A stretch of DNA of 64,000 bases, from assembly GCF_014642075.1 (NCBI RefSeq), contig NZ_BMIK01000001.1, forward strand, positions 558,001 to 622,000, given 5' to 3'. Origin of the DNA: Parapedobacter defluvii (GTDB lineage: Bacteria > Bacteroidota > Bacteroidia > Sphingobacteriales > Sphingobacteriaceae). Of this stretch, positions 33,344 through 64,000 are shown in pieces; the first letter of the stretch is position 1, and the number at the start of each line of letters is the position of its first letter. Below the pieces are notes generated by a model. The model was not told the origin of the DNA. It did not search any database and worked only from the letters and a program-made list of their open reading frames with translations. A program made the translations under genes and the position numbers.

Positions 33344-33358
33344 CGATTAAAATATTAC

Positions 33359-34573: not shown

Positions 34574-34596
34574 ACTTAGATCATTAAAAATCATTT

Positions 34597-35826: not shown

Positions 35827-35846
35827 CACCGATTCTTTCTCAAGCA

Positions 35847-35918
35847 AGTTAGAAAGTCCAAAAGGAACCTAGTGGCGTGAACGAAGTGAGCGTTACAGTT
35901 CCGTTGGGCTTTCTAACT
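35847..35918. terminator. 72-nt long hairpin between convergent operons
   Basis: AGTTAGAAAG TCCAA at the left pairs with TTGGG CTTTCTAACT at the right (15 bp including one G-U). GGAAC/GTTCC extend the stem, and the apex is about 29 nt (with AACG/CGTT). It lies between the last SusCD-operon lipoprotein and the sprA stop, where a two-way terminator is expected. Neither side has a clear U-run, so a small inverted-repeat element is an alternative. A second small hairpin, GTAGTT-CTA-AACTAC (35926-35940), follows. Confidence 0.6.
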
Positions 35919-35943
35919 GCCTATTGTAGTTCTAAACTACCTA

Positions 35944-41900: not shown

Positions 41901-42975
41901 CCATCAGTGCCAGCACATCCCGTGAATCATCCACCGAGTTGCTCCGATTGCTGACCCACACCTCAATCTGTGTGATGTTTACATCCGTTGTTAAAATAGG
42001 GGCAAGGGCCATTGCCCGGTTGAAGTTATCCCGGAAATATTGGGCAAGGAAATAGTGCTGGTTGTCCTCATATTCGTCGGCTTTTAGCGCAAATTCACTT
42101 TCCTGTGCACCGTTTTTGATGGTGATTTCCCGTTGCTGAGAACGCTGTTGGGAAAATATGCCGGTTACGTTCAGCTTGCCGAACTGCAACTGTGTTTTAA
42201 GACCGAAGAGCGCCTGCGTGCCGTTGATCAGCGTGGTATTAAGCGGCATGCTTACATTACCCAATTCGATCCGTTTGATGATGTCGTCGTCTTTCCCTGT
42301 ATAATCGAGCCGGATTTGGTTTTCGAAATCAAATTGGGCTTCCGTGTTGTAGTTGGTGGTTAATTTCAGCCGGTCACCGATTTGCCCGGTCATATTCATC
42401 TGGATGCGTTGGTCAAAATCAAAACCCCACTGCCTGCGCTGCCGTTCGTTAAACATCGGATTGGCGTTTTTGTTGTGCTGCGCCATGATACTGATATCCG
42501 CGCTTCCACGGGGAATGATGTCAATGGTGTTTCCGCCAAAGATTTTTTCAAACGCTTCACTCTGTACATAAATAGTGGGAATCAGCCGGTCCTGCCGGTA
42601 ATCTGTCAGCTGTTTATCCGAGAGTTCACGCCAATAACTGCGTTTCTGTAACGTACTTTCATACGCCTGATACTCATCGATGGTAAGGTATTGCGGAGGG
42701 CGGTACAGACGGCTTCCTAGTTTTTCGCGGATGATGTACTGCCGGGTCAGCGGATCAAAGATCACTTCCCGGTCGATATTCGATGGAATACCGAGATCAA
42801 GCGCATTCTTTTTCTGATATAGATTCAGAAAGGGGAGATCTTTAAGCGGATATTTCAGTTTCACACTATCCCGTCGGAGTGAATCGGCCACGGTCTGCGC
42901 ATGCGCATTGCCCATAGCGACCACTGCAAGAAGCAACACAAACAAACAACAGCGTAGCGAGAACGTCTTGTCCAA
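35944..42975 (-). CDS. sprA: SprA, outer-membrane translocon protein of type IX secretion
   Basis: 2343 residues, the size of SprA (SOV), the giant beta-barrel through which T9SS substrates leave the cell and which gliding requires. The N-terminus is a signal peptide (L-F-V-L-L-L-A-V-V-A-M-G-N-A-H-A). Family sequence occurs throughout: K-K-N-A-L-D-L-G-I-P-S-N near the start, T-G-Q-I-G-D-R-L-K-L-T-T-N-Y-N-T, G-L-D-L-T-Y and many beta-strand-rich segments. No ATG is available upstream of the signal peptide. A stop lies just before, so the gene starts with TTG at 42975. ruvA and maeB lie upstream, a linkage common in the phylum. Confidence 0.95.
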   Translation of the reverse strand: MDKTFSLRCCLFVLLLAVVAMGNAHAQTVADSLRRDSVKLKYPLKDLPFLNLYQKKNALDLGIPSNIDREVIFDPLTRQYIIREKLGSRLYRPPQYLTIDEYQAYESTLQKRSYWRELSDKQLTDYRQDRLIPTIYVQSEAFEKIFGGNTIDIIPRGSADISIMAQHNKNANPMFNERQRRQWGFDFDQRIQMNMTGQIGDRLKLTTNYNTEAQFDFENQIRLDYTGKDDDIIKRIELGNVSMPLNTTLINGTQALFGLKTQLQFGKLNVTGIFSQQRSQQREITIKNGAQESEFALKADEYEDNQHYFLAQYFRDNFNRAMALAPILTTDVNITQIEVWVSNRSNSVDDSRDVLALMDLGEFNPYHPAIAQRGSRYPSTGIPGQTGQQISNNLLEILPPDARLTQSNAIQTLFSGPGANDNYAKLTYARKLREGTEYTVNRRLGFISLNMPLNNDQILAVAYRYTAGGREYQVGEFSTDVPVTPSEPRMLVAKLLKNEILKTNLPIWDLMMKNIYSIGAYGVGQNNFRFNIFRIEDESGVERPAMYEGQNTQNKLWIQLTGLDRLNPQNAQQPDGFFDFLPGITIDPERGRIMFPLVEPFGSDLARQFMPGAEQALIDKYTYQALYDSTKVIAQQYFPNQNRYLIKGSYESEVGTEFQLGAINVPRGSVQVFAGPAPLQEGVDFMVDYDIGRVRILNQALLQSGQPIRIKMENNQLFGLQQRTMLGGRLDYLVNDKLQLGGTIMNLTERPLTQKVNIGEEPISNTMWGLDLTYNSPSRWLTRMVDKIPFLDTKEPSSISFYGEFAQLLPGHPRALDFAGTRSGITYIDDFENSRSFIDIKGAYNWQLSGTPQLFPESELMDNLEYGFNRARLAFYNIDPIFYRNINLTPKNINSAELSNHRVREVLEQEVFPYRESTTGLPIFLSTLDLAFYPTVRGPYNYTTSGVNPDGTLANPRSRWGGMFRKIDAPDFEAQNIEFVEIWMMDPFLTNPGSQGGDLYFNLGNISEDILKDGRKAMENGMSPSGDLSQIDETNWGRVPRNQPVIQAFDNDPAARARQDIGLDGLGDADERGFHGDFLSRMQGLLNPTAAQELANDPSGDNFQYFRGPELDNQQAGILKRYERFNGPEGNSKTPEQSVGVETSASTLLPDGEDINRDNNMNEAEEYYQYRISLRPQDMQVGQNYISDMHTADVELRDGRKTQVKWYQFRIPLSQYQERVGDIRDFKSIRFVRMFMTNFADTAVVRLAQLQLVRGEWRRYNSENNNAKVIAEPSMGNVPLDNSTVEVAAVNIEQNGNRQPIPYVVPPGIERQLDWGNLNNNVQLNEQSLSLDVKDLRDGYGRAAYRTATNDFRAYGRLQMFIHAEGLYLQDGDFRAFVRIGTDDQYNYYQYDMPLKITQPGTRDAELIWPQENRMNIRIAIFQEAKEARNRAMRDGQPWPINEPFTFFDGENRVTIVGQPDISKVRFYMLGVMNPLRGSEASIANDDGLDKSGLFWFNEMRLTDFDDKGGWAVTARVNAQLADFANVTVSGSKSTVGFGSIEQRIGERSRSDDLYLDLVTNAELGKFFPVNYGLRIPLFFSYTRQVGTPEYNPLVPDIELNSALANLSRNQRDSLLRVTQDFTIRRSFNLTNVRKIRTNIEKPVRPWDIENFSATYAYSQNYHRDYLTEVALQKNYRAAFDYTFASSDDLTFEPLKKFIKNKHLGILSDFNFNLMPSLLNFRIDVNRIYNENTLRENNSADNFLPSMGTLYNKNFTMNRIYGISWNLSKSLKLDFNATNYAIVDEPDGRMNGLKRDTLWENFWRLGRTTDYSHMMNITYTLPIHKLPGLDWVNVDARYGTQFNWQTEPLLSMLSPDISMGNSIQNSRTIQVNPTFNMAGLYNKFGFIRNNTGLDASGTAAFFTGLLTSIKNVNAAYTRVQNTFLPGYTPQTNILGYDFDRHAPGWGFLFGSQRDIRERAANNGWITTDTLQTQLYMTSLTEDLSMRAILEPLRDLSIELTAVKLNNQNYTTSFQYSGQTRAFESLTPVTTGNYSISYLTIGTSFKDHEALFRTFERNRQVVSQRFGRLNPNSSGQTDGFADGYGKTAQDVVVNSFLAAYRGKDAERMKLGSFPNIPIPNWNVTYNGLNRIPLFSEFITSLTLRHGYNTRYSINGYNSLIRYAENNGFPSERDVNQNFLPEFQFQQISIFEQFAPLLGFDARFKNNLTANAEYRRARTLNLSLQNSQLALLNDQSFVFGAGYRATGFRMPFGWFSNFKMSNDLNFRLDVSLNDLKTLVYRSDINESEVSAGNKSISYRPAVDYVINQRFNIRLFFDSNSVRPYTSQTFATSYANFGFNLRLMLQ

Positions 42976-47534: not shown

Positions 47535-49061
47535 ATGGCCATCATCGGTGAACTCATCAAACGGACAATTGACGTAACAGGATATATCAGCGGCGACCCC
47601 TCACCGGTAAAAGCCCAAATGAAGGTCTTGCGCGATTTGTTGGAAAAAGCTAAGTATACCGCATTTGGAAAGAAATATCACTTTGAAGCTATGCTATCTG
47701 AAGCGGATCCGATACCAGCCTTCCAGCAAGCGGTGCCTGTGTATGATTACGATACCTTGTATGCGGAATGGTGGCATTACCTGCATGAGGGCCATCAAAA
47801 CGTAACCTGGCCGGGAGGGCAGCGTTATTTTGCATTGAGCAGCGGTACCACGACCAACAGTAAGGCAATTCCCGTTACAGATGATATGCTGGACGCCATT
47901 AAGCGGTCAGGTATCCAACAGATTATGAGTCTTAGAAATTTCGACCTACCAGGCGATTTTTTTGAAAAACAGATCATGATGCTCGGCAGCAGTACGGCAT
48001 TGACACCCAACGGCGAGTTTCTGCAGGGAGAGATCAGTGGTATCAGTGCTGCGAATATACCCTTGTGGTTCAGGCGCTTTTATAAGCCTGGCGCTCGGAT
48101 TGCGGCTACTCCCTCCTGGGAAGAACGGGTACGTAAGATTGCCAAGTACGCGCCGAGATGGGACATCGGCAGCATGACCGGTATTCCTTCCTGGTCTGAG
48201 TTGTTGCTCAAAGAAATCATCCGCTACAACAAAGCAGATACCATACACGATATCTGGCCCAACCTGCAGGTGTATACATCGGGTGGTGTGGCATTTGAAC
48301 CCTATAAAAAGAGCTTTGAAACATTGCTTGCCAAGCCGCTGATCTATATGGATACTTACCTTGCTTCCGAAGGGTATTTGGCCACACAGAAAAGGCCGGA
48401 CACGCAGTCCATGGCTTTGATCGTAGACAACGGGGTGTTCTTTGAATTTGTTCCCTTTACGGAAGAAAATATGGACGAACACGGATGTGTCAGACAAGAT
48501 GCCCAGGTATTGACCCTGGAGGATGTGCAACCCAATGTGCAGTATGTACTGCTGATTTCAACCGTGGCAGGGGCGTGGCGCTATATGATAGGTGATACGG
48601 TCATGATTACCGACATAGAAAGAGCGGAGATTATTATCACGGGTAGGACAAAGCATTTCCTGAATGTAGTAGGCGAACAACTTTCGGTACACCAAATGAA
48701 TGCGGCCATGAAGAAACTCGCCGAGCAATTTGACGCAGAGGTGCTGGAATTTACCGTTGCCGCTGTCCGCAGGGGGCAAGATTACATTAACAAATGGTAT
48801 CTGGGTACCGACAAAGTGCTGGATGCGGCAGCTGCCACCTCATTTTTAGATCGCGAATTGGCTGAGCTTAATAAAAACTACAAAGTGGCCCGTAACAAGG
48901 CGCTCAAAGATGTAGCTGTGGAAATCGTGCCCGTGGATCACTTTTATCAATGGAGCAAGGCAACCAAAAAAATGGGTGGGCAGACCAAAATACCCCGCGT
49001 TATGAAAGAAGAAGATTTCAGGGAATTTGAAAATTTTCTAGCAAAGCTAACGCATCGTTAA
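47535..49061 (+). CDS. GH3 auxin-responsive-promoter family protein (acyl-adenylate-forming)
   Basis: 508 residues of the GH3 superfamily, whose plant members adenylate acidic hormones and join them to amino acids. The bacterial role is unknown. The ATP-binding motif is L-S-S-G-T-T-T-N-S-K. Further family blocks are Y-T-S-G-G-V-A-F-E-P-Y, Y-M-D-T-Y-L-A-S-E-G-Y, Y-R-Y-M-like W-R-Y-M-I-G-D-T-V and T-K-H-F-L-N-V-V-G-E-Q-L. An AGGAAAGA stretch precedes the ATG. It diverges from dacB, and its 3' end overlaps a convergent peptidase gene by four bases. Confidence 0.88.
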   Translation: MAIIGELIKRTIDVTGYISGDPSPVKAQMKVLRDLLEKAKYTAFGKKYHFEAMLSEADPIPAFQQAVPVYDYDTLYAEWWHYLHEGHQNVTWPGGQRYFALSSGTTTNSKAIPVTDDMLDAIKRSGIQQIMSLRNFDLPGDFFEKQIMMLGSSTALTPNGEFLQGEISGISAANIPLWFRRFYKPGARIAATPSWEERVRKIAKYAPRWDIGSMTGIPSWSELLLKEIIRYNKADTIHDIWPNLQVYTSGGVAFEPYKKSFETLLAKPLIYMDTYLASEGYLATQKRPDTQSMALIVDNGVFFEFVPFTEENMDEHGCVRQDAQVLTLEDVQPNVQYVLLISTVAGAWRYMIGDTVMITDIERAEIIITGRTKHFLNVVGEQLSVHQMNAAMKKLAEQFDAEVLEFTVAAVRRGQDYINKWYLGTDKVLDAAAATSFLDRELAELNKNYKVARNKALKDVAVEIVPVDHFYQWSKATKKMGGQTKIPRVMKEEDFREFENFLAKLTHR

Positions 49062-51829: not shown

Positions 51830-54343
51830 TTATTTAAGGACCACGATCATCCGGCTGGACCGGGCAGTTCCTTTGTGGAATGCTTTAAACCGGTAGATTC
51901 CTTTCTCTTTCAAGGGACCATTAACTACCTTGTCTGTCGGGGTAGGAACCCCGCCATCTACCGTATAGCGTACTTCTAACGCTTCAGATTCTGTATTCAC
52001 ATGTATATGGTTATTGTCGATTTTGATGCCCGGAGTGGGAATCCGGTAAAGAATGTCTTTCCAGTACCGATCAAACCGTGGGAGTTCACGCTGCCACAAA
52101 ACAGTATTGAACCTGTTCCATGCCTCATTGTATTGCTTTTCGAACGTTTCGTTTGGAGCAGTTGCCCAGGCAGGGTGCGGAGCCCACGCCCGCTCAGCGA
52201 AGGCGATGAGCTTCGGATACAGCATGTAGTCGAAGTTTTCGTTATGGAGGATGGTCTCTGCCCATAGGGCACATTGCAATCCATTTACGTGTTTTCTTCC
52301 TTCTGCGCTCAGCCTTGCTTTGTCGCGCAGGGAAGCGGTGTCAATCGGTTGATCCAGGTCATCGCGCAAAAATGTGCGGTAGTAATTCTCCGGCATGAAG
52401 CCAAATATTTTTTCCGGGTTGACATATCCACCCCAATACATGCCCGGTTCATAAAAGCTCCGGGTTGATGCCAGGTCAAGGTACATATGGGTCACATTGG
52501 ATAGTACGATGTCGAATCCCTGGTTGGCCAACCGATAGGCCAGGTCTTCGGCCCCCGTACCGTATACATTATTCCATACATCCAACAAGTATCCGTTTTT
52601 TCGGAGTTCGGGAACGACTTCCATCTTTTTACGACCGTTTACATCCACACGTTTCATTCCGATTTCTTCCCATCCGTGCATGCGGATGTCTTTCTTTGCC
52701 AGAATCCCGCCAACCCGGTTGAAGAAATATTCCCAGAGGTCATCTACGGTTTTGAATGAGGGGTTCTCACGCAAGAGACGCTGTACGGCTTCAGATTGCT
52801 CCCATACCCCGGCGGGTACTTCGTCGCCCCCCATATGGACGATCTTCAGTTCCGTTCCGGCATCCTGGTACATCAGGGCCAATTCGGTGACTACCTTTTC
52901 AACAAAGCGATAGGTCGATTCCATCGCGGGGTTGATGGCATCGTCGGTCCAGCCCTGTACGGTGCTGTATTTCGATTTATCCTGCGGGTCACTGAGTAAG
53001 TATTCGGTTGCTTTATCGGCATCCGACTGCACATGGGTATGGTACCGATGTTCCATGGATTTGATGGCGGCCCGTGCGTGCCCGGGTGTTTCAAGTTCGG
53101 GGATTACGGTGATAAACCGGTCTTTAGCATACGTCAGTATATCGATAAAGTCTTTTCGGCTGTAGAATCCGCTGCCACGGGTAGCTGCTGAATCGGGTCC
53201 GGAGCCGTGCGACGGGGGGAGGTGATGGTTCCGATCTGACGTGTGCCCCCGGTATCCACCGAAGGAGGTCAACTCGGGTAACCCCGGAATGGCAATGCGC
53301 CAGCCTTCGTCGTCGTTGAAATGTAAATGCAAGACGTTGATTTTGTAGGCTGCCATCCGATCCAGCACCTGTAATAACTTCTCCTTGGGTAAAAAGTTAC
53401 GTGCAACATCCAGCATCAACGATCGATGTTTAAAGCGGGGCCGATCATCCACTTCCATACCCGGCAAGATACATTTGCCATCGCGGTAGTGATCGAGGAT
53501 CAGGCTCTTCAGGGTTTGTATACCGTAAAACATGCCCGAAGCAGTGCCTGCACTGATCTCAATACCAGTATTTTCGATGCGCAATTGATAGGCTTCTTCT
53601 TCGAGGTTCCAAAACTTCAGCTTAATTCCCCCTTTCGTGGGGTCATTGACCGTGCGAACGCCAAGTTGCGTGTATTTTTTAAGCTCATCCACCAAATAAG
53701 CCGCCTGGCCGGCAAACGGATTATCGGCAACGACCAGAAAGCCATCGGTAAGGGCGTATTGCTGCCCATTGGATTTTGCGGACTGCGGACTAGGGATGAG
53801 TTGGTGGGCTACGTCAACGGGTAACTCCGGTATCAGCCGTTTGTTGCGTTCGTAGATTTCTTCCGCAAGCGCATTCTCAGGGAGAACCAGTTGGTCGTAT
53901 TGCGGGTTTTCGTTGGTGAAGGAGTGGTATTGATCCGGTTGATCGTCGTATACCAAGTAGAATCCGGTTGGAAAATCGGAGATGTTCCGCAGCAGTGCCT
54001 GCCGGATGGGAATTACCAGCGTGTTGCCATCGATGTGAAAATCAGCGGTGGGCGCGATGTAATTTAGATCTCCATTGACGGGAATAAGGGTAAATTTCCC
54101 GCCATCGGAGCCATCAATCTGTGGATTTTTATATGAGTTGAAATAAAGCTTCCAGTTCTTTTGGTTTAAGTTGTGCGACTGCGGGAGCTGCAGGCTTACA
54201 TAGGAAACCGGTACCGGCTGTCCATTGGCATCGGTATGGATTCCGATCGAGTAAGTAAAATCATGCGAAGACCGTTTGCCTGTCATACAGGCCGACAGTA
54301 AAAAGCCAAAAACCAAAAGGATAACCGGTGTATTCATTTTCAT
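51830..54343 (-). CDS. GH20 beta-N-acetylhexosaminidase lipoprotein
   Basis: 837 residues from the ATG at 54343. A lipoprotein signal (F-L-L-S-A-C-M) is followed by a carbohydrate-binding N-terminal domain, the GH20b domain, the GH20 barrel and a chitobiase-type C-terminal domain. In the barrel, L-H-L-H-F-N-D-D-E-G-W-R and the catalytic pair D507-E508 in H-M-G-G-D-E-V-P are intact. It releases terminal GlcNAc or GalNAc in the periplasm or at the surface. The open frame runs 94 codons further upstream into the divergent promoter region with no signal peptide; that extension is not coding. It diverges from the SusC-sulfotransferase operon. Confidence 0.93.
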   Translation of the reverse strand: MKMNTPVILLVFGFLLSACMTGKRSSHDFTYSIGIHTDANGQPVPVSYVSLQLPQSHNLNQKNWKLYFNSYKNPQIDGSDGGKFTLIPVNGDLNYIAPTADFHIDGNTLVIPIRQALLRNISDFPTGFYLVYDDQPDQYHSFTNENPQYDQLVLPENALAEEIYERNKRLIPELPVDVAHQLIPSPQSAKSNGQQYALTDGFLVVADNPFAGQAAYLVDELKKYTQLGVRTVNDPTKGGIKLKFWNLEEEAYQLRIENTGIEISAGTASGMFYGIQTLKSLILDHYRDGKCILPGMEVDDRPRFKHRSLMLDVARNFLPKEKLLQVLDRMAAYKINVLHLHFNDDEGWRIAIPGLPELTSFGGYRGHTSDRNHHLPPSHGSGPDSAATRGSGFYSRKDFIDILTYAKDRFITVIPELETPGHARAAIKSMEHRYHTHVQSDADKATEYLLSDPQDKSKYSTVQGWTDDAINPAMESTYRFVEKVVTELALMYQDAGTELKIVHMGGDEVPAGVWEQSEAVQRLLRENPSFKTVDDLWEYFFNRVGGILAKKDIRMHGWEEIGMKRVDVNGRKKMEVVPELRKNGYLLDVWNNVYGTGAEDLAYRLANQGFDIVLSNVTHMYLDLASTRSFYEPGMYWGGYVNPEKIFGFMPENYYRTFLRDDLDQPIDTASLRDKARLSAEGRKHVNGLQCALWAETILHNENFDYMLYPKLIAFAERAWAPHPAWATAPNETFEKQYNEAWNRFNTVLWQRELPRFDRYWKDILYRIPTPGIKIDNNHIHVNTESEALEVRYTVDGGVPTPTDKVVNGPLKEKGIYRFKAFHKGTARSSRMIVVLK

Positions 54344-54460
54344 ATTGAAAACAAAACTAATCGCCTGCATTGAAATCTTTTTTACCATATTCCTGAAAAA
54401 TTGGGCTACAGTCCGGCAGCAAATCGGGATGAACGGACAAAAAATAAGGACTATAGGAAT

Positions 54461-54489
54461 TTTAGGTAAGCCCGGGTAGGGTAAATTTG
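54461..54489 (+). promoter_or_regulatory. promoter for the SusCD-sulfotransferase operon
   Basis: TAAATTTG at 54482-54489 is a perfect TAnnTTTG -7 element. TTTAG at 54461 is a poor but possible -33 box. The start point would be near 54496, and an AGGAAC sequence precedes the SusC ATG at 54530. It lies in the 186-nt gap shared with the divergent hexosaminidase gene. Confidence 0.5.
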
Positions 54490-54529
54490 TGATGAACTCC
54501 AATGTACAACGTAAATTAATAGGAACACT

Positions 54530-57500
54530 ATGGTAAATTGTAAACCCAAGGTTATCCGACTGACAAGCCTGCTGTTGTTTTTGTGGATGGGGGGAAGTAC
54601 CCTGTTGGCAAACGCTCAAACCCAAATCAATGTTTCCGGTACGGTCGTCGATGAAAATGGAACGGTGCTCAGCGATGTCAATATCGGTGTCGCGGATGGT
54701 GCCACCCTAACCAAGTCAACAGAAATGGGGACATTCACGCTTGTTGTGCCGGCAAACAGTCAGCTCGTATTTTCACGCGTAGGGTATGCCCGTCAAACCC
54801 ATCAGGCCGGAAGTACATCGGTCACCGGACTAACCATTACACTGGGAGCCGAGCAAAAGACACTCGATGAAGTGGTGGTGGTCGGCTATGGTACGCGCGA
54901 CCGGAGCTTGTTTGCAGGTTCAGCCGTTTCGCTAAACGCTGAGGACCTCAACAAATCGTCCATCTCGGTGGGAAATATGTTGCAGGGCCGTGCCGCCGGT
55001 GTGCAGGTAAGCCAAAATAACGGTACCCCCGGTGCCGGCTTATCGATCCGCATCCGGGGTACCAACTCCATCAATGCGGATAGCGAACCGCTGTACGTGA
55101 TCGATGGGTTCCCCGCATCCGAGGGAATCGGTATGACCCTCAAACCCGAGGATATCGAAAGCATCACCATCCTGAAAGACGCGGCTTCCACGTCCATCTA
55201 TGGAGCACGTGGAGCAAACGGTGTGGTGTTGGTCACGACCAAAAAGGGAACCGACAAAAAAAGTAACCTGAATGTCAACAGTTCGGTGGGGTACCAACGC
55301 GTTATCGACCGCTACGACCTGTTGGGTCCCTATGATTTCGCGTTGCGGCGCAACCGGATGTCAGAAGCAAATGGGGAGTTGCCTCCATATTCCTCCGGCC
55401 GTTTGGATTCACTGCAATCGGGGATATTAGGTACCGATTGGCAAAACGAGGTTTTCCGGGTAGGGCGTGTCAACGACCATTCCCTTAGCTTCATCGGCGG
55501 GACCAATAAAACCGGGGTGTACACCAGTTTTGATTACCTGGGACAGGAAGGGGTCGTCGTGCACTCCAAATACCGAAGGATCGGAGCACGTATCAATGTG
55601 GACCACCACGTGAGCGACCAATTTACGCTTTCAGGCCGTGTATTCGGAAACTATGGTGTCCAGAACGATCTTCCCTTGGCCCCTTCAACCATCAACGGAT
55701 TTCTGAAACAGGTGATGAGTGCGAATCCGGCATCAACATTTGATTCGGGTGTCCCTCCACGGCTGGATGCACAGAATCCATTGCACTTCGTGGAGGCCGA
55801 AGACCGCGAAAATACCAGCTATCGTACCAATGGCTATTTCTCCATGAAGTATGAGCCGGTCCGTGACCTCTTTTTGCAGGCAGATTTCGGTGCCGACATC
55901 AATAAAACGGAGCAATTTTATTTTGCACCGTCCACCGTGCCCAATGCATCGGCAACGAAGGGCAGAGGGTCCATCGTTTCGTTTGATTCAAAAGAGCTCA
56001 TCTTTAATCCCACCGCCCGCTACAACCGTACTTTTGACAAGCACAATATCGGATTGCTGGCCGGTTACAACTACCAAACGTATCTCTATTTTGAATATGG
56101 AACCAATGCAACCAATTTTGCCAGTGACAACCTGGGGTATAATAACCTGAGTACGGCGCAGAACTTTACCAGTTACTCCGCCCGTAACCGCACCAACCGG
56201 GCCAGCTGGTTTGGCCGGGTTGATTACGATTACGATACCCGCTATAGTTTGACGGCAACCTATCGCATCGACGGATCTTCGGTATTCGGTAAGTCAAATA
56301 AATTGGGGTATTTCCCTTCGGTAGCCGCGGCATGGAATGTAAAGAACGAAAGTTTTGCCGAAGACCTGACCTGGTTGTCGCAAGCCAAGCTGCGGGCCAG
56401 CTACGGCCTCACGGGCAACGACCGGATCAGTCCGGGTATTTCCCTGGCTACCTATGCCAGCAACAACTCCACCAAATACACGGAAGATGGCCTCACAACG
56501 GTCAACGGGATTGCCGTGACCCGGCTTTCAAATCAGAATTTAAAATGGGAAAGCACGAAGGCCCTGGATCTTGGGATTGATATCGGTTTTGCGGACGACC
56601 GGATCGTTTTCGTAGCCGACTATTACGACAAGTATACCGACAACCTGTTGTTAGACCGGAACATCGCGCCCTCCACGGGATTCTTGTTCCGGACGGGCAA
56701 TGCCGGGGCGGTATCCAACAAAGGATGGGAAGTTGCATTGCAGACCGTCAACATACGGAACGACCACGTTGAATGGAATACGTCCATCAATTATTCCCAC
56801 AACCGCAACCAAGTCCGCTCATTGGGAAGTAACAATGCCGATATCTATGTGGGATCTGTCAAACCCGATGGTGCCGCAAATTTTGAGGACCCTTTCATTA
56901 TCCGTGTAGGTGAACCCATCGGTTCCATTAACGGGTATGTGTACGACGGTATCCTGAAACCAGGTGATCCCGCATTGACAACTACGCATCCCAATGCTCA
57001 GGTGGGCGATCCCAAATATGTGGACACCAACGGGGATGGCATTCTCAACACGGACGACCGTGTGGTACTCGGTACCGGTGTGCCTACTTCCTTCTTCGGA
57101 ATGACCAATAGCGTGGGTTACAAAGGATTTAACTTAACCGTGGTGCTTCAGGGACAGGCTGGCGGTAAATTGGTGAATGTACAAAGCCTGGATATGATGG
57201 ATCCGTTATCGACCGGAAATGTGCTGGCGTTCACGGAACCGGAAACATGGACACCGGATAATCCAAACGGTACGTTACCCCAACGGGGTTTTTACGGCAC
57301 CAGCCACGGCGGGTGGGTCAATTCCCGGTTTGTGGAGAGTTCGGATTACCTGCGCCTGAAAAACGTTACACTGGCCTATCAACTTCCTTCTTCCCTCCTG
57401 TCAAAAATCCGGGTATCCCAGTTGCAGCTCTACGTCAATGCGCAAAACCTCCATACCTGGACACCCTATACGGGCTTGGATCCGGAAATCGGCAACCTGG

Positions 57501-57601
57501 TTTCGAATGATCAGCAAAATAGAAATGTGGGTAGGGGCCTTGATTTCAATGCCTATCCACTGGCCAAAATGTATATCTTTGGATTGAGGTTGACTTTTTA
57601 A
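54530..57601 (+). CDS. SusC/RagA-family TonB-linked outer-membrane transporter
   Basis: 1023 residues without an STN domain, so not a FecIR-signalling type. After a signal peptide (L-L-L-F-L-W-M-G-G-S-T-L-L-A-N-A) come the carboxypeptidase-like domain (about 32-105, V-S-G-T-V-V-D-E-N-G-T-V), the D-E-V-V-V-V-G-Y-G-T motif and the plug (Y-V-I-D-G-F, G-A-R-G-A-N-G-V-V-L-V-T). The barrel ends F-G-L-R-L-T-F. It is the first gene of a six-gene operon whose later genes handle sulfuryl groups. Its ligand is unknown. Confidence 0.95.
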   Translation: MVNCKPKVIRLTSLLLFLWMGGSTLLANAQTQINVSGTVVDENGTVLSDVNIGVADGATLTKSTEMGTFTLVVPANSQLVFSRVGYARQTHQAGSTSVTGLTITLGAEQKTLDEVVVVGYGTRDRSLFAGSAVSLNAEDLNKSSISVGNMLQGRAAGVQVSQNNGTPGAGLSIRIRGTNSINADSEPLYVIDGFPASEGIGMTLKPEDIESITILKDAASTSIYGARGANGVVLVTTKKGTDKKSNLNVNSSVGYQRVIDRYDLLGPYDFALRRNRMSEANGELPPYSSGRLDSLQSGILGTDWQNEVFRVGRVNDHSLSFIGGTNKTGVYTSFDYLGQEGVVVHSKYRRIGARINVDHHVSDQFTLSGRVFGNYGVQNDLPLAPSTINGFLKQVMSANPASTFDSGVPPRLDAQNPLHFVEAEDRENTSYRTNGYFSMKYEPVRDLFLQADFGADINKTEQFYFAPSTVPNASATKGRGSIVSFDSKELIFNPTARYNRTFDKHNIGLLAGYNYQTYLYFEYGTNATNFASDNLGYNNLSTAQNFTSYSARNRTNRASWFGRVDYDYDTRYSLTATYRIDGSSVFGKSNKLGYFPSVAAAWNVKNESFAEDLTWLSQAKLRASYGLTGNDRISPGISLATYASNNSTKYTEDGLTTVNGIAVTRLSNQNLKWESTKALDLGIDIGFADDRIVFVADYYDKYTDNLLLDRNIAPSTGFLFRTGNAGAVSNKGWEVALQTVNIRNDHVEWNTSINYSHNRNQVRSLGSNNADIYVGSVKPDGAANFEDPFIIRVGEPIGSINGYVYDGILKPGDPALTTTHPNAQVGDPKYVDTNGDGILNTDDRVVLGTGVPTSFFGMTNSVGYKGFNLTVVLQGQAGGKLVNVQSLDMMDPLSTGNVLAFTEPETWTPDNPNGTLPQRGFYGTSHGGWVNSRFVESSDYLRLKNVTLAYQLPSSLLSKIRVSQLQLYVNAQNLHTWTPYTGLDPEIGNLVSNDQQNRNVGRGLDFNAYPLAKMYIFGLRLTF

Positions 57602-57707
57602 CTATAAAAACCGAACAGTAATGAAACCTGCCATGTCAGCGGCTGACGCAAAAAAAGACGATGAAAATGCAGGTTCCATTAGGCTATTAAAAATAAATTA
57701 TTTTCTA

Positions 57708-59282
57708 ATGAACTACCAAGTAAAACCAACCTTATATATGTTCCTGCTCTGCTCATTGTTGCCAATCTCGTGCGAGAACGGCTTGCAGGAAGAATCGTAT
57801 TCTGTTTTCGATGAAACTACGCTGACCAAGCCCGAAAACGGTTTGCAGGGTGTGCGCGGTGTGTACGCTGCGCTCCGGGATAACGGTGGCAACGGGTATT
57901 ATGCCGGTTACCTGCACCAGTTAACGGAATATCCGTCTGATATTGTCACCACCAAACCCGACAGTCGGCAAGGAATCCAGCTGGATCAGTTGACCTACGA
58001 TGCCAGCAATTCCATCGTCAATGACGTATGGGCAAGTATCTTCCGGTTGATTTCGAGAGCCAACGAATCGGAATACCTCATCGGAAAAATCGACTACGTG
58101 GGCAACGGCGAGTCGGAGGAAGTTAAAATGCAGCATTTGGCAGAAGTACGTTTCCTGCGTGCCCTGGCCTATTACGATGCGACATCGCTGTGGGGAGATG
58201 TGCCGCTGAACCTGAAATCATCGGCTGATTTTACCGAAGCAGACGAGAACCCGCCGTTGGTGCCGCAGGCAACCATTGAAGAGCAGATCGTCGTTGACCT
58301 CCAATATGCCGAGGAACATCTTCCTTCCAGTTATCCCGCGGAACAGAACGGCCGGGCTACAAAGGGTGCGGCACAGGGGTTGCTGGCCAGGTTGTATCTG
58401 CGGCGTGGAGAATGGCAGAAAGTGGCAGATAAATGTGCCGAGGTGATTTCCGGTGGGGTCTACGATTTGCGTACCGCGGCCGAAGGTGGTGTCGTTGCGT
58501 TGTTTGACAACATGAACCGATCCGACAATGAATTCATTTTTGTGATGAAATCTTCCAGTGAACCGGGCTCCTACGGTATTTTGTCCAACAGCTTCGGCAT
58601 CCAGTCCGTTCCGTGGGACTACAACCGGGGTTGGGGTAATTTTCCGATTCACCGTGAATTTTATGCAAAGTTCAACCTGCAGGATCAACGGCGTCAGCTG
58701 TTGCTGGGTACCTATAAGGCACTGTACGGACAGATCATTACCTTACCGAAGGAGTTTGGCGGCGAAGGAGGTAGTTTGCCCGATACCGTACAGGCGCAAT
58801 ATACCTATGGGCTCAAATATCCCCACGTCAATAATTATAACTATGCCGGATACAATAATGTCAGTGTCATCCGGTATTCGGACATCCTGTTGATGCGGGC
58901 TGAAGCCCTCAACGAACTAAATGGCCCCAATAACGAATCGGTATCGTTGATCAACGACGTGAGAACACGCAGCAATGCGCCGGTTGTCCAATTATCGGAC
59001 TTCGGATCCAAGGAAGCGCTGCGGGATTTTATCTTTGACGAGCGCGGATTGGAATTGTTTATGGAGGGACGCCGTCGGGACGACCTGATCCGGTGGGGGC
59101 GCAGTGCCACCAACGGTACCGACCCGCTATCGAAGTTTAAGGAGAAGGTCAAACCCCTGCTTCGGGACCAAAACACCTATTCGGATGCGGTCAACTATGC
59201 ATTATACCCCTATCCGATCCAGGAGATACAGGCAAATACATCGCTGGATGTCAGTATTAACAAAGGCCGGGTAAGGCAATAG
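57708..59282 (+). CDS. RagB/SusD-family outer-membrane lipoprotein
   Basis: 524 residues from the ATG at 57708 with a lipoprotein signal (L-L-P-I-S-C-E-N). The open frame begins at 57621, but its first 29 residues are polar and precede the signal peptide. Family motifs include F-L-R-A-L-A-Y-Y-D, G-D-V-P-L, A-R-L-Y-L-R-R-G-E-W and the C-terminal R-Y-S-D-I-L-L-M-R-A-E-A-L-N-E and R-G-L-E-L-F-M-E-G-R-R-R-D-D-L-I-R-W. It is the partner of the SusC upstream. Its stop is only 3 nt from the sulfotransferase start. Confidence 0.93.
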   Translation: MNYQVKPTLYMFLLCSLLPISCENGLQEESYSVFDETTLTKPENGLQGVRGVYAALRDNGGNGYYAGYLHQLTEYPSDIVTTKPDSRQGIQLDQLTYDASNSIVNDVWASIFRLISRANESEYLIGKIDYVGNGESEEVKMQHLAEVRFLRALAYYDATSLWGDVPLNLKSSADFTEADENPPLVPQATIEEQIVVDLQYAEEHLPSSYPAEQNGRATKGAAQGLLARLYLRRGEWQKVADKCAEVISGGVYDLRTAAEGGVVALFDNMNRSDNEFIFVMKSSSEPGSYGILSNSFGIQSVPWDYNRGWGNFPIHREFYAKFNLQDQRRQLLLGTYKALYGQIITLPKEFGGEGGSLPDTVQAQYTYGLKYPHVNNYNYAGYNNVSVIRYSDILLMRAEALNELNGPNNESVSLINDVRTRSNAPVVQLSDFGSKEALRDFIFDERGLELFMEGRRRDDLIRWGRSATNGTDPLSKFKEKVKPLLRDQNTYSDAVNYALYPYPIQEIQANTSLDVSINKGRVRQ

Positions 59283-59285
59283 CGG

Positions 59286-60677
59286 ATGGTACGGAACCTT
59301 GCCCTGTATACGGTGGTTACGGCGCTGATCGTTATCGGCGCCTTTGCCCTTTATCGGGTTTGGCAACCGTTGAATATCGAAGCGATCGAGCTGCATTACC
59401 TGCCGGAAAACCGGTTGCGCGTGCGGGTGAACGTTGCCACAAATAAATCGGCTTCCGTACAGGTTAAGTACTGGCTGAAGGGCGGCATGGATACTCTATG
59501 GTCGGATGTGTATGCGGACCAATCCAGTCACGCGGTGATTCTCTATAACCTCCTGCCCCAGCGCCAATATGCCTATCAGGTAAAAGCGCGGCGTGGGGCG
59601 GATACCGACTGGAGCAACGTATATTCCATTGAAACCAAATCGATCTATCATACCACGCCCTATTTTACCTTAGACAGCATCGCCGGCTCCATCCGGGAGG
59701 ACATGCAAAACCGGTACTTCCTTACACAGATACTCACTGAACCCGGGGCTGCGGTGATCATCAATGGATTGGGCGATATGGTGTGGTATGAACCCTTTGC
59801 GAAGGGCGTGAAAGTTTCTTCCTGGACACCTGATCGTACCGTATTATGCATCATCGGATCGGAAGATATACCCGCTTCGGGCGGAGACGAGATCGTAGAG
59901 GTAAACCTCAAGGGTGAGTATGTGAAGCATTTCAAGGTGGGGGAGGGGGATATGGATAAACGGGTGCATCACGAGGTACGTAAGGATGCGGAAGGTAATA
60001 TTTACGCGATTACCTTTGACCATAAATTGTTTGACCTGAGCACGGTGGGTGGGGGGTCTGCCGATACCGTCAGGGCCGATGGCATCGTGGTCTTCGATCC
60101 CGACGGGAAGAAAATCTGGGAATGGTCGGTGCTGGATCACCTGGATGTGCTGCATTATCCAACGATATTGAAAGATAAGAACGATCTCGTGCATGGCAAT
60201 GCCCTGTACGACGACGGAAACGGATATTTCCTGATGTCGTTCCGCGATTTGAACCAGATTTGGAAAATCCACAAAAAGACCGGGGAGGTATTATGGAAGT
60301 TTGGTCAGGGCGGCGATTTTCCCATGCAGGAGGACGACTTGTTTTTCGCCCAGCATTACGTCCATATAAATCGTCGTGGCGAGCTGATGATTTTGGATAA
60401 CGGGATCAAACGCAAGCAGTCGAGGGCGTTGTCTTTTAAATTGGATGAGCCCAACAGACAGTATCGGCGTACGCTGGAAGTCAAGTACCCGCCCGCTTTT
60501 TTTTCGTCCGTAAAAGGCAATTCGGCGCTATTGGGTGAAGGCAATGTGCTGACTTGTTTGACAGACCCCCGGCTGTTTGTGCTTTCCGACGATGCGGGCA
60601 ACCTGCTCTGGAAAATCAGCATGGGGGGCGATCCCTACCGCATTGAAGAAATTCCGTTAGTAGCCGCAACGCCATGA
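59286..60677 (+). CDS. arylsulfate sulfotransferase (ASST) family protein
   Basis: 463 residues. An N-terminal signal anchor (about 5-24, A-L-Y-T-V-V-T-A-L-I-V-I-G-A-F) places it on the periplasmic side. A beta-sandwich (about 30-118) comes before a six-bladed ASST propeller. Family residues are visible: H228-H229 (V-H-H-E), H303 (V-H-G-N-A), S318-F-R320, H357/H360 (Q-H-Y-V-H) and D371-N-G. Known ASSTs move a sulfuryl group from a phenolic sulfate to another phenol through a sulfo-histidine, without PAPS. Here the gene sits in an operon with a SusCD pair and PAPS-linked genes. The donor and acceptor are unknown. Confidence 0.85.
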   Translation: MVRNLALYTVVTALIVIGAFALYRVWQPLNIEAIELHYLPENRLRVRVNVATNKSASVQVKYWLKGGMDTLWSDVYADQSSHAVILYNLLPQRQYAYQVKARRGADTDWSNVYSIETKSIYHTTPYFTLDSIAGSIREDMQNRYFLTQILTEPGAAVIINGLGDMVWYEPFAKGVKVSSWTPDRTVLCIIGSEDIPASGGDEIVEVNLKGEYVKHFKVGEGDMDKRVHHEVRKDAEGNIYAITFDHKLFDLSTVGGGSADTVRADGIVVFDPDGKKIWEWSVLDHLDVLHYPTILKDKNDLVHGNALYDDGNGYFLMSFRDLNQIWKIHKKTGEVLWKFGQGGDFPMQEDDLFFAQHYVHINRRGELMILDNGIKRKQSRALSFKLDEPNRQYRRTLEVKYPPAFFSSVKGNSALLGEGNVLTCLTDPRLFVLSDDAGNLLWKISMGGDPYRIEEIPLVAATP

Positions 60678-61882
60678 ACAGCCAGCTGATGACCCATAAT
60701 CCGGCACGTACGGCCATGGATTCACTCCTGCGGCTTTCCTGGGGTATCTTTAAAGTGGGTGCCGTGGCTTTTGGCGGTCACGCTGCCCTGGTGGTCATGG
60801 TCGAACGTTTTTTGGTTACCGAGAAAAAACTGTTGAGCAGCGAAGAGGTCCTAAATGCCATGAGTCTGGCCACGCTTCTGCCGGGGCCGTTGGCGGTTAA
60901 CGTGGTTTGCTATTTGGGGTACCGGCTGCATGGCTGGCTGGGAGCATGTGCATTTTTCATGGCCATCACTGCTCCTCCCACCCTCTTGATGGTGGCGATT
61001 GCTGCGTGGTATTACCAGGCAGCAGACCAAGCCGGAGCGGGCGGTTCGAATCGGTTTGTGCTGTTAGCGGTTGCCGCCGTGATCTTATCTACGGGCGCTG
61101 CCCTGTACAAAAAGCAGGTTGGTAAGGATGTGACCGGATTGTTTCTGAGTATACTGGCGTTTGCGACGACGCTCTTATACCGCGGTTTTACCGGCTCAGT
61201 TGTATTGATTCTGGTGGGTGCGGCGGTGGGCTATATCGCCTACCGAGAGGAACCCGAGCCGACAATCCGGGTACCCCATACGGCTTCCCGGTCGGTGGCC
61301 GGGCCTGTTATCCTTACCTTGCTGGCGATAGTTCTCATCGGGTATTTATTGGGGGGATACCGGCTGGTACCGTACGGATCCTGGCAGGTACTGTCGGTTT
61401 TCAGTGGCATGAGCCTCACGCTTTTCGGCGGAGGCATGGTCATTATACCGTATATGCAATCCATTTTGGTCGATGAACTGCATTGGCTTCCGGTAAAGGA
61501 ATATGTGGATGCCATTGCATTCGGACAGGTTACGCCGGGGCCCATTCTCGTCAGCGTCACATTTATCGGGTATAAGATTGCAGGCATCGTGGGCGCCCTA
61601 TTGGCCACACTGGCAATTTTTGTTCCTTCTGCCAGCTTGATGATTGTACTTGCACAGTATATCAACTATCGGCATGCCGGCATCAAGGCGGTGTTCAAGG
61701 GGATCCGTCCGGTCGTGATCGGGATGATCCTGGCGGCGGGTGTTCAGCTGGTCCTGGCCATGCCTCATTTTTCGTGGGCCGCTGTTTTATTTGGGTTGGC
61801 CGGATTAGCCGGGTTGTCTTTCGGGCGGCTGAATCCGATTTATCTGATTCTTTTGGGATTTATGATCGACTTTATTTTTTGA
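60674..61882 (+). CDS. ChrA-type (CHR family) oxyanion transporter
   Basis: 402-residue membrane protein with two CHR domains, the long bidomain form. Domain one has V-A-F-G-G-H-A-A-L and L-L-P-G-P-L-A-V-N. Domain two has L-F-G-G-G-M-V-I-I-P and T-P-G-P-I-L-V-S. Known members export chromate, a sulfate analogue. The four-base ATGA overlap with the ASST gene and the surrounding sulfur genes suggest that here it moves sulfate or a related oxyanion. That is inference; a chromate-resistance role is the alternative. Confidence 0.88.
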   Translation: MNSQLMTHNPARTAMDSLLRLSWGIFKVGAVAFGGHAALVVMVERFLVTEKKLLSSEEVLNAMSLATLLPGPLAVNVVCYLGYRLHGWLGACAFFMAITAPPTLLMVAIAAWYYQAADQAGAGGSNRFVLLAVAAVILSTGAALYKKQVGKDVTGLFLSILAFATTLLYRGFTGSVVLILVGAAVGYIAYREEPEPTIRVPHTASRSVAGPVILTLLAIVLIGYLLGGYRLVPYGSWQVLSVFSGMSLTLFGGGMVIIPYMQSILVDELHWLPVKEYVDAIAFGQVTPGPILVSVTFIGYKIAGIVGALLATLAIFVPSASLMIVLAQYINYRHAGIKAVFKGIRPVVIGMILAAGVQLVLAMPHFSWAAVLFGLAGLAGLSFGRLNPIYLILLGFMIDFIF

Positions 61883-61885
61883 AAT

Positions 61886-62893
61886 ATGGAGATACAAGGC
61901 ATACAAATCATCGGTACCCAGCGTTCGGGTTCCAACCTGCTCCGGGTGATACTTAATCAGTCCGAGCAATTGGTTTCACCGCATCCCGCGCATCTGTTGG
62001 CTAATTTTGTGCCCTTGATGCCCTATTACGGCACATTGGATGCCATTTCTTACAGGCGCCTGGTGGAAGATGCGGTCGACTATATCCACGTGAATCCCGT
62101 CGACTGGGGTGTGCGCCTGGATAAAGATGAAATTTACCGGATGGCCGGTCAATTCAGTCTTTTCGAGCTGAATAAAAATATCTACGAATTCCTTGCGCGC
62201 CGATGCGGCGCGGGGTATTGGTGTTGCAAAAGCATGGGCAATATGTACTTTTCCGACGAGCTGGAGAAGGTATCTGCCGGTCTCAAATACATTTACCTCT
62301 ACCGCGATGGGCGTGATGTCGCCCTGTCGTTTCAGAAGGCCATCGTCGGTGAAAAGCACAGTTACCACATTGCCAAGCAGTGGCATAACGATCAGCAGGC
62401 CTGTTTGCAACTGCGGGATCGGGTGCCCGCCGAACGGTTCTTTATGTTGAATTACGAGCGGCTTATCCTGCATCCCGAGCAAACCATCCGGCAACTGTGT
62501 GAATTTTTGGGTATCGAATTTCAGGATGCCATGCTGCACTATTACACTTCGGATGAATCCCGGCGGACCGCCGAAGGGGGTGCAATGTGGACAAACCTGA
62601 CAAAGCCGGTCATGCAGGACAATGCCAATAAATACCTGCGGGAAATGTCGGCAGAGGATATCCGTATCTTTGAATCGGTAGCGTTTGATAGTTTGGTGGC
62701 GTTGGGATACGAACCCATTACCCCGCGTGCGGATCTTCTCAGTTTTACCTGGGAAGACGTAGCGGCTTTCAATGTGAGAAACGATCAGTTAAAGCGTGCG
62801 TTCAAGGCATCCGAAGACGATAAAAAAAGGAGGCAGCCGCAGCTTAACTTAATTAGTCGCATCAGGGAAACCGAACTGAGTGTGTATGGATAA
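61886..62893 (+). CDS. PAPS-dependent sulfotransferase family protein
   Basis: 335-residue soluble enzyme with the 5'-phosphosulfate-binding loop near the N-terminus (I-G-T-Q-R-S-G-S-N-L-L, residues 9-19) and the 3'-phosphate-binding motif Y-R-D-G-R-D-V-A-L-S (about 139-148). These are the two PAPS-contact signatures. No signal peptide, so it acts in the cytoplasm. It starts 3 nt after chrA and overlaps cysQ by 8 nt. CysQ would remove the PAP it produces. The acceptor (lipid, glycan or small phenol) cannot be read from the sequence. Confidence 0.9.
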   Translation: MEIQGIQIIGTQRSGSNLLRVILNQSEQLVSPHPAHLLANFVPLMPYYGTLDAISYRRLVEDAVDYIHVNPVDWGVRLDKDEIYRMAGQFSLFELNKNIYEFLARRCGAGYWCCKSMGNMYFSDELEKVSAGLKYIYLYRDGRDVALSFQKAIVGEKHSYHIAKQWHNDQQACLQLRDRVPAERFFMLNYERLILHPEQTIRQLCEFLGIEFQDAMLHYYTSDESRRTAEGGAMWTNLTKPVMQDNANKYLREMSAEDIRIFESVAFDSLVALGYEPITPRADLLSFTWEDVAAFNVRNDQLKRAFKASEDDKKRRQPQLNLISRIRETELSVYG

Positions 62894-63686
62894 AAAACGA
62901 GATATCCCGGCTATCGCCGATATCGCGCGGAAGGCTGGAGAGGCAATTCTGGATGTATATCACACGGATACGGACCAATGGGAAATCCAACAGAAGCATG
63001 ATAATTCGCCCCTTACCCTGGCGGATACCGTATCCCACCGGATCATCGCGGATGGCCTGAAAAGTATTTTCCCGGCAATCCCCATGCTGTCGGAAGAAGG
63101 CAAGGACATTCCTTACGAGAAGCGGAAGAAGATGGACCGTTACTGGTGTGTGGATCCTTTGGACGGTACGAAGGAATTTATTTCCCGCAACGGAGAGTTT
63201 ACGGTGAACATTGCGCTGATTGCGGGAAATGAACCTGTTTTTGGCGTGATTTATGTGCCCGTAACCGGTGTGTTGTATTACGGCCTGAAAGACGAAGGAA
63301 GTTTCAAGACCGAAGGTGGGGAAACCCGGCGTATACAGGCGAGCCCGTCCCATAATCCGGTAGCCGTGGGCAGCAAGTCACACAAGACTGCCGAAGAGGA
63401 GGCTTTTTTATCGTCCCTGGATATCCGGGACGTGGTCAGCATCGGAAGTTCCCTGAAATTCTGCCTGATTGCCGAGGGGAAAGCGCAGGTATACTACCGG
63501 CATGGCCCCACCATGGAGTGGGATACGGCTGCGGGCCATGCCATAGCCGTTGCCAGTGGCGCCCGGATGACACAAGCGGATGGCAGCGCATTTGTATATA
63601 ACAAACCCAGCTTGGTAAACGGAAGTTTCATCTGCTACTCGGTCAACTTACACCACAAAATAGCTGCGCTTTCTTCCGGTGTATGA
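62886..63686 (+). CDS. cysQ: 3'(2'),5'-bisphosphate nucleotidase CysQ
   Basis: Inositol-phosphatase-fold enzyme that hydrolyses PAP (and PAPS) to AMP and phosphate. The metal motifs are S-E-E-G (68-71), D-P-L-D-G-T-K-E-F (90-98) and the late E-W-D-T-A-A-G-H-A. The ATG at 62886 gives 266 residues; the open frame starts with GTG two codons earlier. The start lies inside the sulfotransferase 3' end, so the two are co-translated. The 3' end overlaps the convergent cysC by 52 nt. Confidence 0.95.
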   Translation: MDKKRDIPAIADIARKAGEAILDVYHTDTDQWEIQQKHDNSPLTLADTVSHRIIADGLKSIFPAIPMLSEEGKDIPYEKRKKMDRYWCVDPLDGTKEFISRNGEFTVNIALIAGNEPVFGVIYVPVTGVLYYGLKDEGSFKTEGGETRRIQASPSHNPVAVGSKSHKTAEEEAFLSSLDIRDVVSIGSSLKFCLIAEGKAQVYYRHGPTMEWDTAAGHAIAVASGARMTQADGSAFVYNKPSLVNGSFICYSVNLHHKIAALSSGV

Positions 63687-64000
63687 TGCCGCGTATCAAT
63701 GGATAAAACACGTGCATCCGGCAGCTCAAAGGAAGCGGATACGCCGGTAAAATCGGGAATACGACGTTCCCTGGCTTTCCGGTAAAGCCCTTTTACATCC
63801 CGGCGCTCACATTCGGATGCGGGGCAATCCAGGTAAACCAAAAGCAGTTCTTCCCCTACGATCCCGGATACCAATTGCCGGTGGGCATCCATGGGTGTGA
63901 TAAAACTGCCGATGCAAACGATGTTCTGTTTCACCAACAGATCGGCGATGTGGCTGGCACGCCGGATATTCTCCGCACGGTCCTCGTTGGAGAACCCCAG
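63635..64000 (-). CDS. cysC: adenylylsulfate kinase CysC, 3' part (runs off the window)
   Basis: APS kinase making PAPS from APS and ATP. Only the last 121 residues are inside the window, and the frame stays open to the edge. Family sequence is clear: L-G-F-S-N-E-D-R-A-E-N-I-R-R at the edge, V-Y-L-D-C-P, the substrate loop D-V-K-G-L-Y-R-K-A-R and F-T-G-V-S-A-S-F-E-L-P. The P-loop N-terminus is outside. The 3' end overlaps cysQ tail to tail. A PAPS-supplying operon (cysD/cysN) probably continues to the right. Confidence 0.92.
   Translation of the reverse strand: MGFSNEDRAENIRRASHIADLLVKQNIVCIGSFITPMDAHRQLVSGIVGEELLLVYLDCPASECERRDVKGLYRKARERRIPDFTGVSASFELPDARVLSIDTRHHTPEESAAILWCKLTE

Follow-up and report, generated by a model that had tools for sequence, protein, structure and literature searches.

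Two sulfotransferases acting one after the other are described for caprazamycin synthesis in Streptomyces, where, according to excerpts of two papers, Cpz8 uses 3'-phosphoadenosine 5'-phosphosulfate (PAPS) to form a sulfated triketide pyrone that serves Cpz4 as the donor for sulfation of an aminoribose (PMC6731281, PMC4257720); a review ascribes to Cpz4 a preference for sugar hydroxyls. In a stretch of 64,000 nucleotides of Parapedobacter defluvii (bases 558001-622000 of contig 1 of the 5.80-Mb genome; hereafter the window), we observed a block of seven genes in which a PAPS-type sulfotransferase (ST) and a propeller protein of the arylsulfate sulfotransferase (ASST) type are likewise encoded together. 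In contrast to the Streptomyces system, the block adds SusC and SusD, a ChrA-type transporter, CysC and CysQ, it belongs to a Gram-negative cell, and no antibiotic genes were noticed in the stretch around it. The likeness of ST to Cpz8 is one of enzyme type.

A second counterpart is the cluster BT_0411-BT_0416 of Bacteroides thetaiotaomicron, for which an excerpt of a paper describes PAPS genes, a cholesterol sulfotransferase and, in BT_0412, a putative importer of sulfate (PMC9417993). In this cluster as in the window block, genes for sulfate activation adjoin that of a PAPS sulfotransferase, and both belong to Bacteroidota, whereas that excerpt names no ASST, SusCD or ChrA, and the CysN of the window's genome lies on another contig; the two sulfotransferases are set side by side here by gene context, not by sequence. 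The block also resembles SusCD utilization loci, since SusC and SusD are adjacent and glycan-active enzyme genes, a glycoside hydrolase gene among them, and a hybrid two-component regulator gene lie nearby, but it differs from them in the sulfation module immediately behind SusD. With respect to the single enzymes, the window ASST has 17-18% identity to AssT of E. coli CFT073 (3ELQ) and, unlike it, an N-terminal membrane-type helix, and ST has about 19-24% identity to tyrosylprotein sulfotransferases (TPSTs) and to the sulfotransferase domains of CurM and olefin synthases. An earlier interpretation of this DNA made from the letters alone (the sequence-only reading) knew of no described system of this exact makeup. 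This stands for the gene combination, on which no paper was found in the openly licensed literature, and not for the relay chemistry, which has a precedent in Streptomyces.

Six of the genes follow one another head to tail with intact frames, in the order SusC, SusD, ASST, ChrA, ST and CysQ, and cysC converges on them. In profile searches, all seven products scored above curated family cut-offs. The genes, followed by a divergent neighbor, are:

54530..57601, forward strand: SusC/RagA-type TonB-dependent outer-membrane transporter (TIGR04056, 820 bits, cut-off 368; Plug and barrel in Pfam)
57621..59282, forward strand: SusD-type lipoprotein (SusD_RagB, PF07980, 118 bits; probable true start 57708)
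59286..60677, forward strand: ASST-like propeller (PF05935, 82.3 bits, cut-off 24.2; PF14269, 77.6 bits, cut-off 27)
60674..61882, forward strand: two-domain ChrA-type transporter of the CHR superfamily (PF02417, 218.9 bits in 2 stretches; TIGR00937, 191 bits, above cut-off)
61886..62893, forward strand: PAPS-type sulfotransferase, ST (PF13469, 101 bits; TPST/CurM-like fold)
62880..63686, forward strand: CysQ, 3'(2'),5'-bisphosphate nucleotidase, for clearance of 3'-phosphoadenosine 5'-phosphate (PAP) (TIGR01331, 288 bits, cut-off 229)
63635..64000, extending beyond the window to 64150, reverse strand: cysC, adenylylsulfate kinase, for PAPS formation (TIGR00455, 172 bits, cut-off 139)
51830..54625, reverse strand: GH20-type hexosaminidase, divergent from SusC (PF00728, 304 bits)

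The gap between SusC and SusD is 19 nt with the listed start and 106 nt with the start at 57708, which is the more likely one judging from the lipoprotein-type signal that it opens (MNYQVK...). Further on, SusD and ASST are separated by 3 nt, ASST and ChrA overlap by 4 nt, ChrA and ST are separated by 3 nt, and ST and CysQ overlap by 14 nt with the GTG start or by 8 nt with the ATG at 62886; cysC overlaps the 3' end of cysQ by 52 nt. All overlaps are upper bounds, because the open reading frame maps consist of the longest non-overlapping frames. Frames, spacings and family models thus confirm what the sequence-only reading had claimed, namely six tightly spaced genes on one strand with a convergent cysC. 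The genes may be co-transcribed; promoter and terminator scans remained close to the shuffled level (20 vs. 27.1 and 24 vs. 23.1 expected from shuffles). The hybrid regulator gene (Reg_prop, HisKA, receiver and HTH_18 domains in a Pfam scan) lies outside the window in the orientation of cysC and ends 1 nt ahead of it. Beyond it there are a GH16-like gene, with no Pfam match and with weak ExoK/BglS NCBIfam matches far under cut-off, and a second SusD/SusC pair. The GH20 gene, which adjoins the block in the window and in three congeneric loci, is a neighbor outside the sulfation core.

The distribution of the two sulfotransferases was determined in a family sample of 301 genomes, in which a match at E 1e-40 or better was taken as an ST ortholog and one at E 4.5e-79 or better as a strong ASST. 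An ASST match was present in 54 genomes and was strong in 33. The ST ortholog was present in 26 genomes, all of them among the 33 with a strong ASST, and in none of the 268 others (Fisher p = 1.9e-31, kinship ignored). By genus, ST occurred in six of 25, the same six that gave strong ASST matches. The ST and ASST starts were at most 10 kb apart in 24 of the 26 ST genomes; the other two (G283 and G295) hold both genes although they are far apart, with ChrA-ST-CysQ and a convergent CysC intact as one unit, and therefore ST tracks ASST at the genome level, beyond the locus level. Within Parapedobacter, ASST was found in four of nine genomes, and the same four have ST and are the only ones with a ChrA match. 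The block is kept in three congeners, and members of further genera and families have it in part or reordered; among named loci, those of Parapedobacter indicus, P. pyrenivorans and P. koreensis are closest. This conservation rejects chance neighborhood or an accident of one strain. The co-occurrence for which the sequence-only reading had proposed a search is thus real, and the gene order, far from being unique to one strain, recurs in relatives.

In a phylum sample of 395 genomes, an ST-like match (E 1e-30) was found in six, and two of these have an ASST. The matches in the other four are distant (26-33% identity), with no ChrA- or ASST-like gene in the surrounding 16 kb, where the neighbors are unannotated. 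A dependence of ST on ASST throughout the phylum is therefore rejected; it is true of the ortholog only. The phylum sample contains 25 ASST genomes, nine with strong matches (E below 1e-60) and 16 with weak ones inside larger proteins, which may be other relatives. A spread of ASST by plasmids is not favored, 8 distant matches only having been obtained.

Gene order was compared in 80 named loci, which are the best 80 of 217 found with two short patterns, one of them spanning the site at which Arg, Tyr or Pro occurs (see below), so that proportions within this set are not natural frequencies. The flanks covered about 10 kb, genes farther away being missed, and neighbors were labeled by BLAST against a single representative of each kind, the representatives having been scanned in Pfam. 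The named loci overlap in source with the loci carrying G numbers (e.g., L079-L081 and L033-L035), and the two sets are not independent. ASST stands directly behind a SusD in 79 of the 80 loci. ChrA and ST never occur one without the other: 34 loci have the pair and 46 have neither, and ChrA immediately precedes ST in all 34 (median overlap 4 nt), either before or after SusCD-ASST. One order is SusC-SusD-ASST-ChrA-ST-CysQ with CysC convergent or co-directional; in four Pedobacter loci (L107, L108, L109, L158) it is ChrA-ST-CysQ-CysC-SusC-SusD-ASST, and in two Mucilaginibacter loci (L127, L148) ChrA-ST-M1 peptidase-CysC-SusC-SusD-ASST-cytochrome. In a genome of another family of the same class (G348), the order is ChrA-ST-ASST; ST shares 4 nt with ASST, which retains all five catalytic residues. 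CysQ and CysC are both present in 20 of the 34 ST loci, one of them in six and neither in eight. The strongest evidence for a shared function of the parts is that identical parts are joined in differing orders.

Two further arrangements were observed. In Dyadobacter bucti, a single contig carries a pair of SusCD-ASST loci about 20 kb apart, one (L083) with an Arg-type ASST, CysQ and CysC but without ST, the other (L103) with a Tyr-type ASST and ChrA-ST, so that jointly they make up one full set. In Mucilaginibacter, an M1-family peptidase-like protein adjoins the PAPS unit (L050, L051, L056, L102, L127, L140, L141 and L148, some of which are the same genome sampled twice), a possible hint that the carrier or the substrate is a peptide.

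The sequence-only reading had taken the propeller protein for a sulfotransferase. In a profile alignment with 31 relatives, residues H252, H356, N358, R374 and H436 of E. coli ASST correspond to H229, H303, N305, R320 and H357 of the window ASST (T501 is outside the mapped set), and at the last of these positions Asn is found in 4p04 and 4p05, which are entries of the H436N mutant. The catalytic roles of these residues, including that of the histidine carrying the sulfuryl group, are given in an excerpted review (PMC13426309). All 80 named loci have the counterparts of H229, H303, N305 and H357, and 22 also have the Arg equivalent to R374 and with it the full set of five. Of these 22 loci, 20 have ST, and the genomes of the other two (L083 and L084) have it at second ASST loci (L103 and L156). 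The AlphaFold 2 model (mean predicted local distance difference test score 92.5) shows a membrane-type helix at residues 2-26, a beta-sandwich part and a propeller, according to which the protein should be membrane-anchored and face the periplasm. The predicted propeller fold matches 3ELQ and Cpz4, and Cpz4 is the closest solved relative by sequence. It also ranks first by Z (9kf6, 35.5, 2.7 A over 327 residues; 9kf4, 34.5), followed by E. coli AssT (31.4-32.0), the next entry being at 23.8. The assignment as a sulfotransferase is thus supported by the kept residues and by the nearest structures, with the activity itself predicted.

The nearest folds of ST are TPSTs, the product of which is an aryl sulfate, and its fold is closer to these than to SULTs; sulfation of steroids as in Bacteroides is not favored on this ground, no direct test having been made. 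Since the ST model has neither a signal nor a membrane helix, the enzyme is presumably cytosolic. As for ChrA, the equivalog models for ChrB and ChrA, relevant to chromate efflux, gave 84.5 and 83.5 bits, respectively, against a cut-off of 250. In a tree computed without L164, L172, L176 and L183 (wrong frames) and without second copies of module genes, the window ChrA falls among the ChrA proteins that adjoin ST in other loci, and 34 module rows are split cleanly from 8 others (96/96, with long-branch warnings). SrpC, a ChrA homolog reported to be a sulfate transporter, is unmentioned among the literature matches listed and was not used as a lead. The window's genome contains a second ChrA-type gene (L175; contig 12, about 162759-163796), with a TAA inside one of its two domain matches; in the tree it is not a member of the group formed by the ChrA proteins of the sulfation loci. 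The genes of PAPS synthesis are not all within the cluster: CysN, which serves adenosine 5'-phosphosulfate (APS) formation, has one representative above cut-off, on contig C6, while the cluster is on C1 (CysD was not searched). The genome also holds a second ST-CysC pair (L077:9295-10678, contig 11), and the surrounding 20 kb contain nothing that resembles ASST, ChrA or CysQ.

We tentatively propose, at a confidence that falls somewhat short of even, that two-step sulfation proceeds as a relay across the inner membrane and is coupled to uptake by SusCD. CysC would convert APS into PAPS in the cytosol, ST would transfer the sulfuryl group from PAPS to a small carrier, presumably one with a phenol, tyrosyl or comparable group, to give an aryl sulfate, and CysQ would remove the resulting PAP. 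The sulfated carrier would then reach the periplasm, probably via ChrA, and the membrane-anchored ASST would take the sulfuryl group onto His357 and pass it to an acceptor imported by SusC/SusD, for which a hydroxyl on a glycan or glycoside is the likeliest candidate. Since PAPS is cytosolic while the ASST should face the periplasm, the two are most simply linked by a carrier able to cross the membrane. ChrA is the candidate transporter because it adjoins ST in all 34 ST loci, and SusCD, the GH16 and GH20 genes and Cpz4's preference for sugars point to a glycan or glycoside as the acceptor. Export of the sulfated carrier by ChrA is in itself doubtful, and import of sulfate instead would be nearly as likely, by analogy with the importer proposed for Bacteroides in the excerpt cited above (PMC9417993). 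The relay as such had already been suggested by the sequence-only reading; it gains from the co-occurrence, the catalytic residues and the Cpz8-Cpz4 precedent as excerpted, whereas for ChrA the import of sulfate has to be considered as well as the export of a sulfate ester.

A number of observations weigh against this relay. ST is absent from 46 of the 80 named ASST loci, from seven of the 33 strong-ASST genomes of the family and from 23 of the 25 ASST genomes of the phylum sample (seven of the nine strong ones); these ASSTs, if active, obtain their donors elsewhere or serve another role. The residue equivalent to R374 is Tyr or Phe in 58 of the 80 named loci, and 14 of these have ST, so that an ASST need not have all the catalytic residues to be a partner of ST. 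In a wider set of 31 ASST rows, three (L062, L063 and L065) lack the residue matching H356 (H303 in the window), and four have Pro at the Arg site. When Foldseek E-values are considered, E. coli AssT (4p05) comes first and Cpz4 second and third. In the Streptomyces pathway, the carrier is made by the type III polyketide synthase Cpz6; no such synthase was found above cut-off in the window's genome (PF00195, 26.2 vs. 27 bits). Finally, CHR proteins are known for chromate, not for sulfate esters.

In the ASST tree, the 58 Tyr/Phe rows and 23 Arg rows (window included) are split by one branch (support 100/99), so that loss of the Arg would need a single event in this set, and it does not track ST exactly. 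A SoxA/TsdA-like cytochrome c adjoins SusC-SusD-ASST in 40 of the 80 named loci (L113, L118, L134 and others), all with a Tyr/Phe-type ASST; in many of them GH123-type and DUF5107-TPR proteins come next, and cytochrome and ST unit occur together in only three loci.

Possible, although rather unlikely, is a single pathway without a relay, in which ChrA imports sulfate and CysC, CysQ and ST sulfate a cytosolic substrate, while the ASST, independently of these, draws on external aryl sulfates or sulfates a different site; a common regulon would account for the grouping of the genes. The Bacteroides cluster of importer, PAPS genes and sulfotransferase is described with no relay mentioned in the excerpt (PMC9417993), and where the module has come apart, in G283 and G295, ChrA is found next to ST rather than ASST, which fits the supply of sulfate for PAPS and the export of a carrier equally. 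However, such a pathway fails to predict that the ST ortholog is absent from every family genome lacking a strong ASST, and it does not predict the ST/ASST overlap in G348. We consider it unlikely that the propeller is no longer an enzyme and acts as a SusCD-associated binding or accessory protein next to a separate, co-regulated sulfation unit of ChrA, ST, CysQ and CysC. The position directly behind SusD, which is the usual place of accessory lipoproteins in SusCD operons, would suit this role, as would the loss of the Arg in most of the loci and a lipobox-like pattern (called with a simple pattern) in 51 of the 58 Tyr/Phe ASSTs as compared to four of the 22 with Arg. On the other hand, the full mapped set in the window and in the 22 Arg loci, together with the four residues kept throughout the named loci, if not in three rows of the wider set, argues for an enzyme; a degenerate ASST is ruled out in this way for the window and retained as a rival for the Tyr/Phe group.

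The whole system might also run in reverse, with SusCD importing sulfated aromatics or glycosides, the ASST moving their sulfuryl group to an acceptor, ChrA bringing this acceptor into the cytosol, and ST handing the group on to PAP to give PAPS for sulfur assimilation. According to the excerpted review (PMC13426309), an ASST of Bacteroides vulgatus uses acetaminophen sulfate as donor and acetaminophen as acceptor, so that the transfer can go in either direction. Against this, CysC makes PAPS and CysQ destroys PAP, so that the two, which occur together in more than half of the ST loci, would counteract it, and scavenging of this kind appears very improbable.

Elsewhere in the window, a SusD gene is followed by genes for DUF4959/DUF5126/DUF5000 and DUF4998/DUF5000 proteins (31409-42975), adjoined on the opposite strand by a gene for a 2343-residue protein with SprA_N domains, and 47535-49061 encodes a protein of the Pfam family GH3 (PF03321, 101 bits), which we take to be of the acyl-acid amido synthetase type.

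The block is real and conserved, and the chemistry proposed for it has one precedent. It gives ASST a genetic context with a PAPS enzyme, an importer and a transporter of its own, and makes bacterial sulfation outside the inner membrane, where PAPS is not made, a testable question. If the relay includes export by ChrA, which we consider doubtful, a Cpz4-type enzyme would sulfate SusCD-imported molecules with a PAPS-derived carrier exported by a CHR-family transporter; this would mean a new substrate class for CHR proteins and a natural endogenous donor for these ASSTs, and a dedicated transmembrane sulfuryl relay would provide Gram-negative bacteria with a periplasmic source of activated sulfate.

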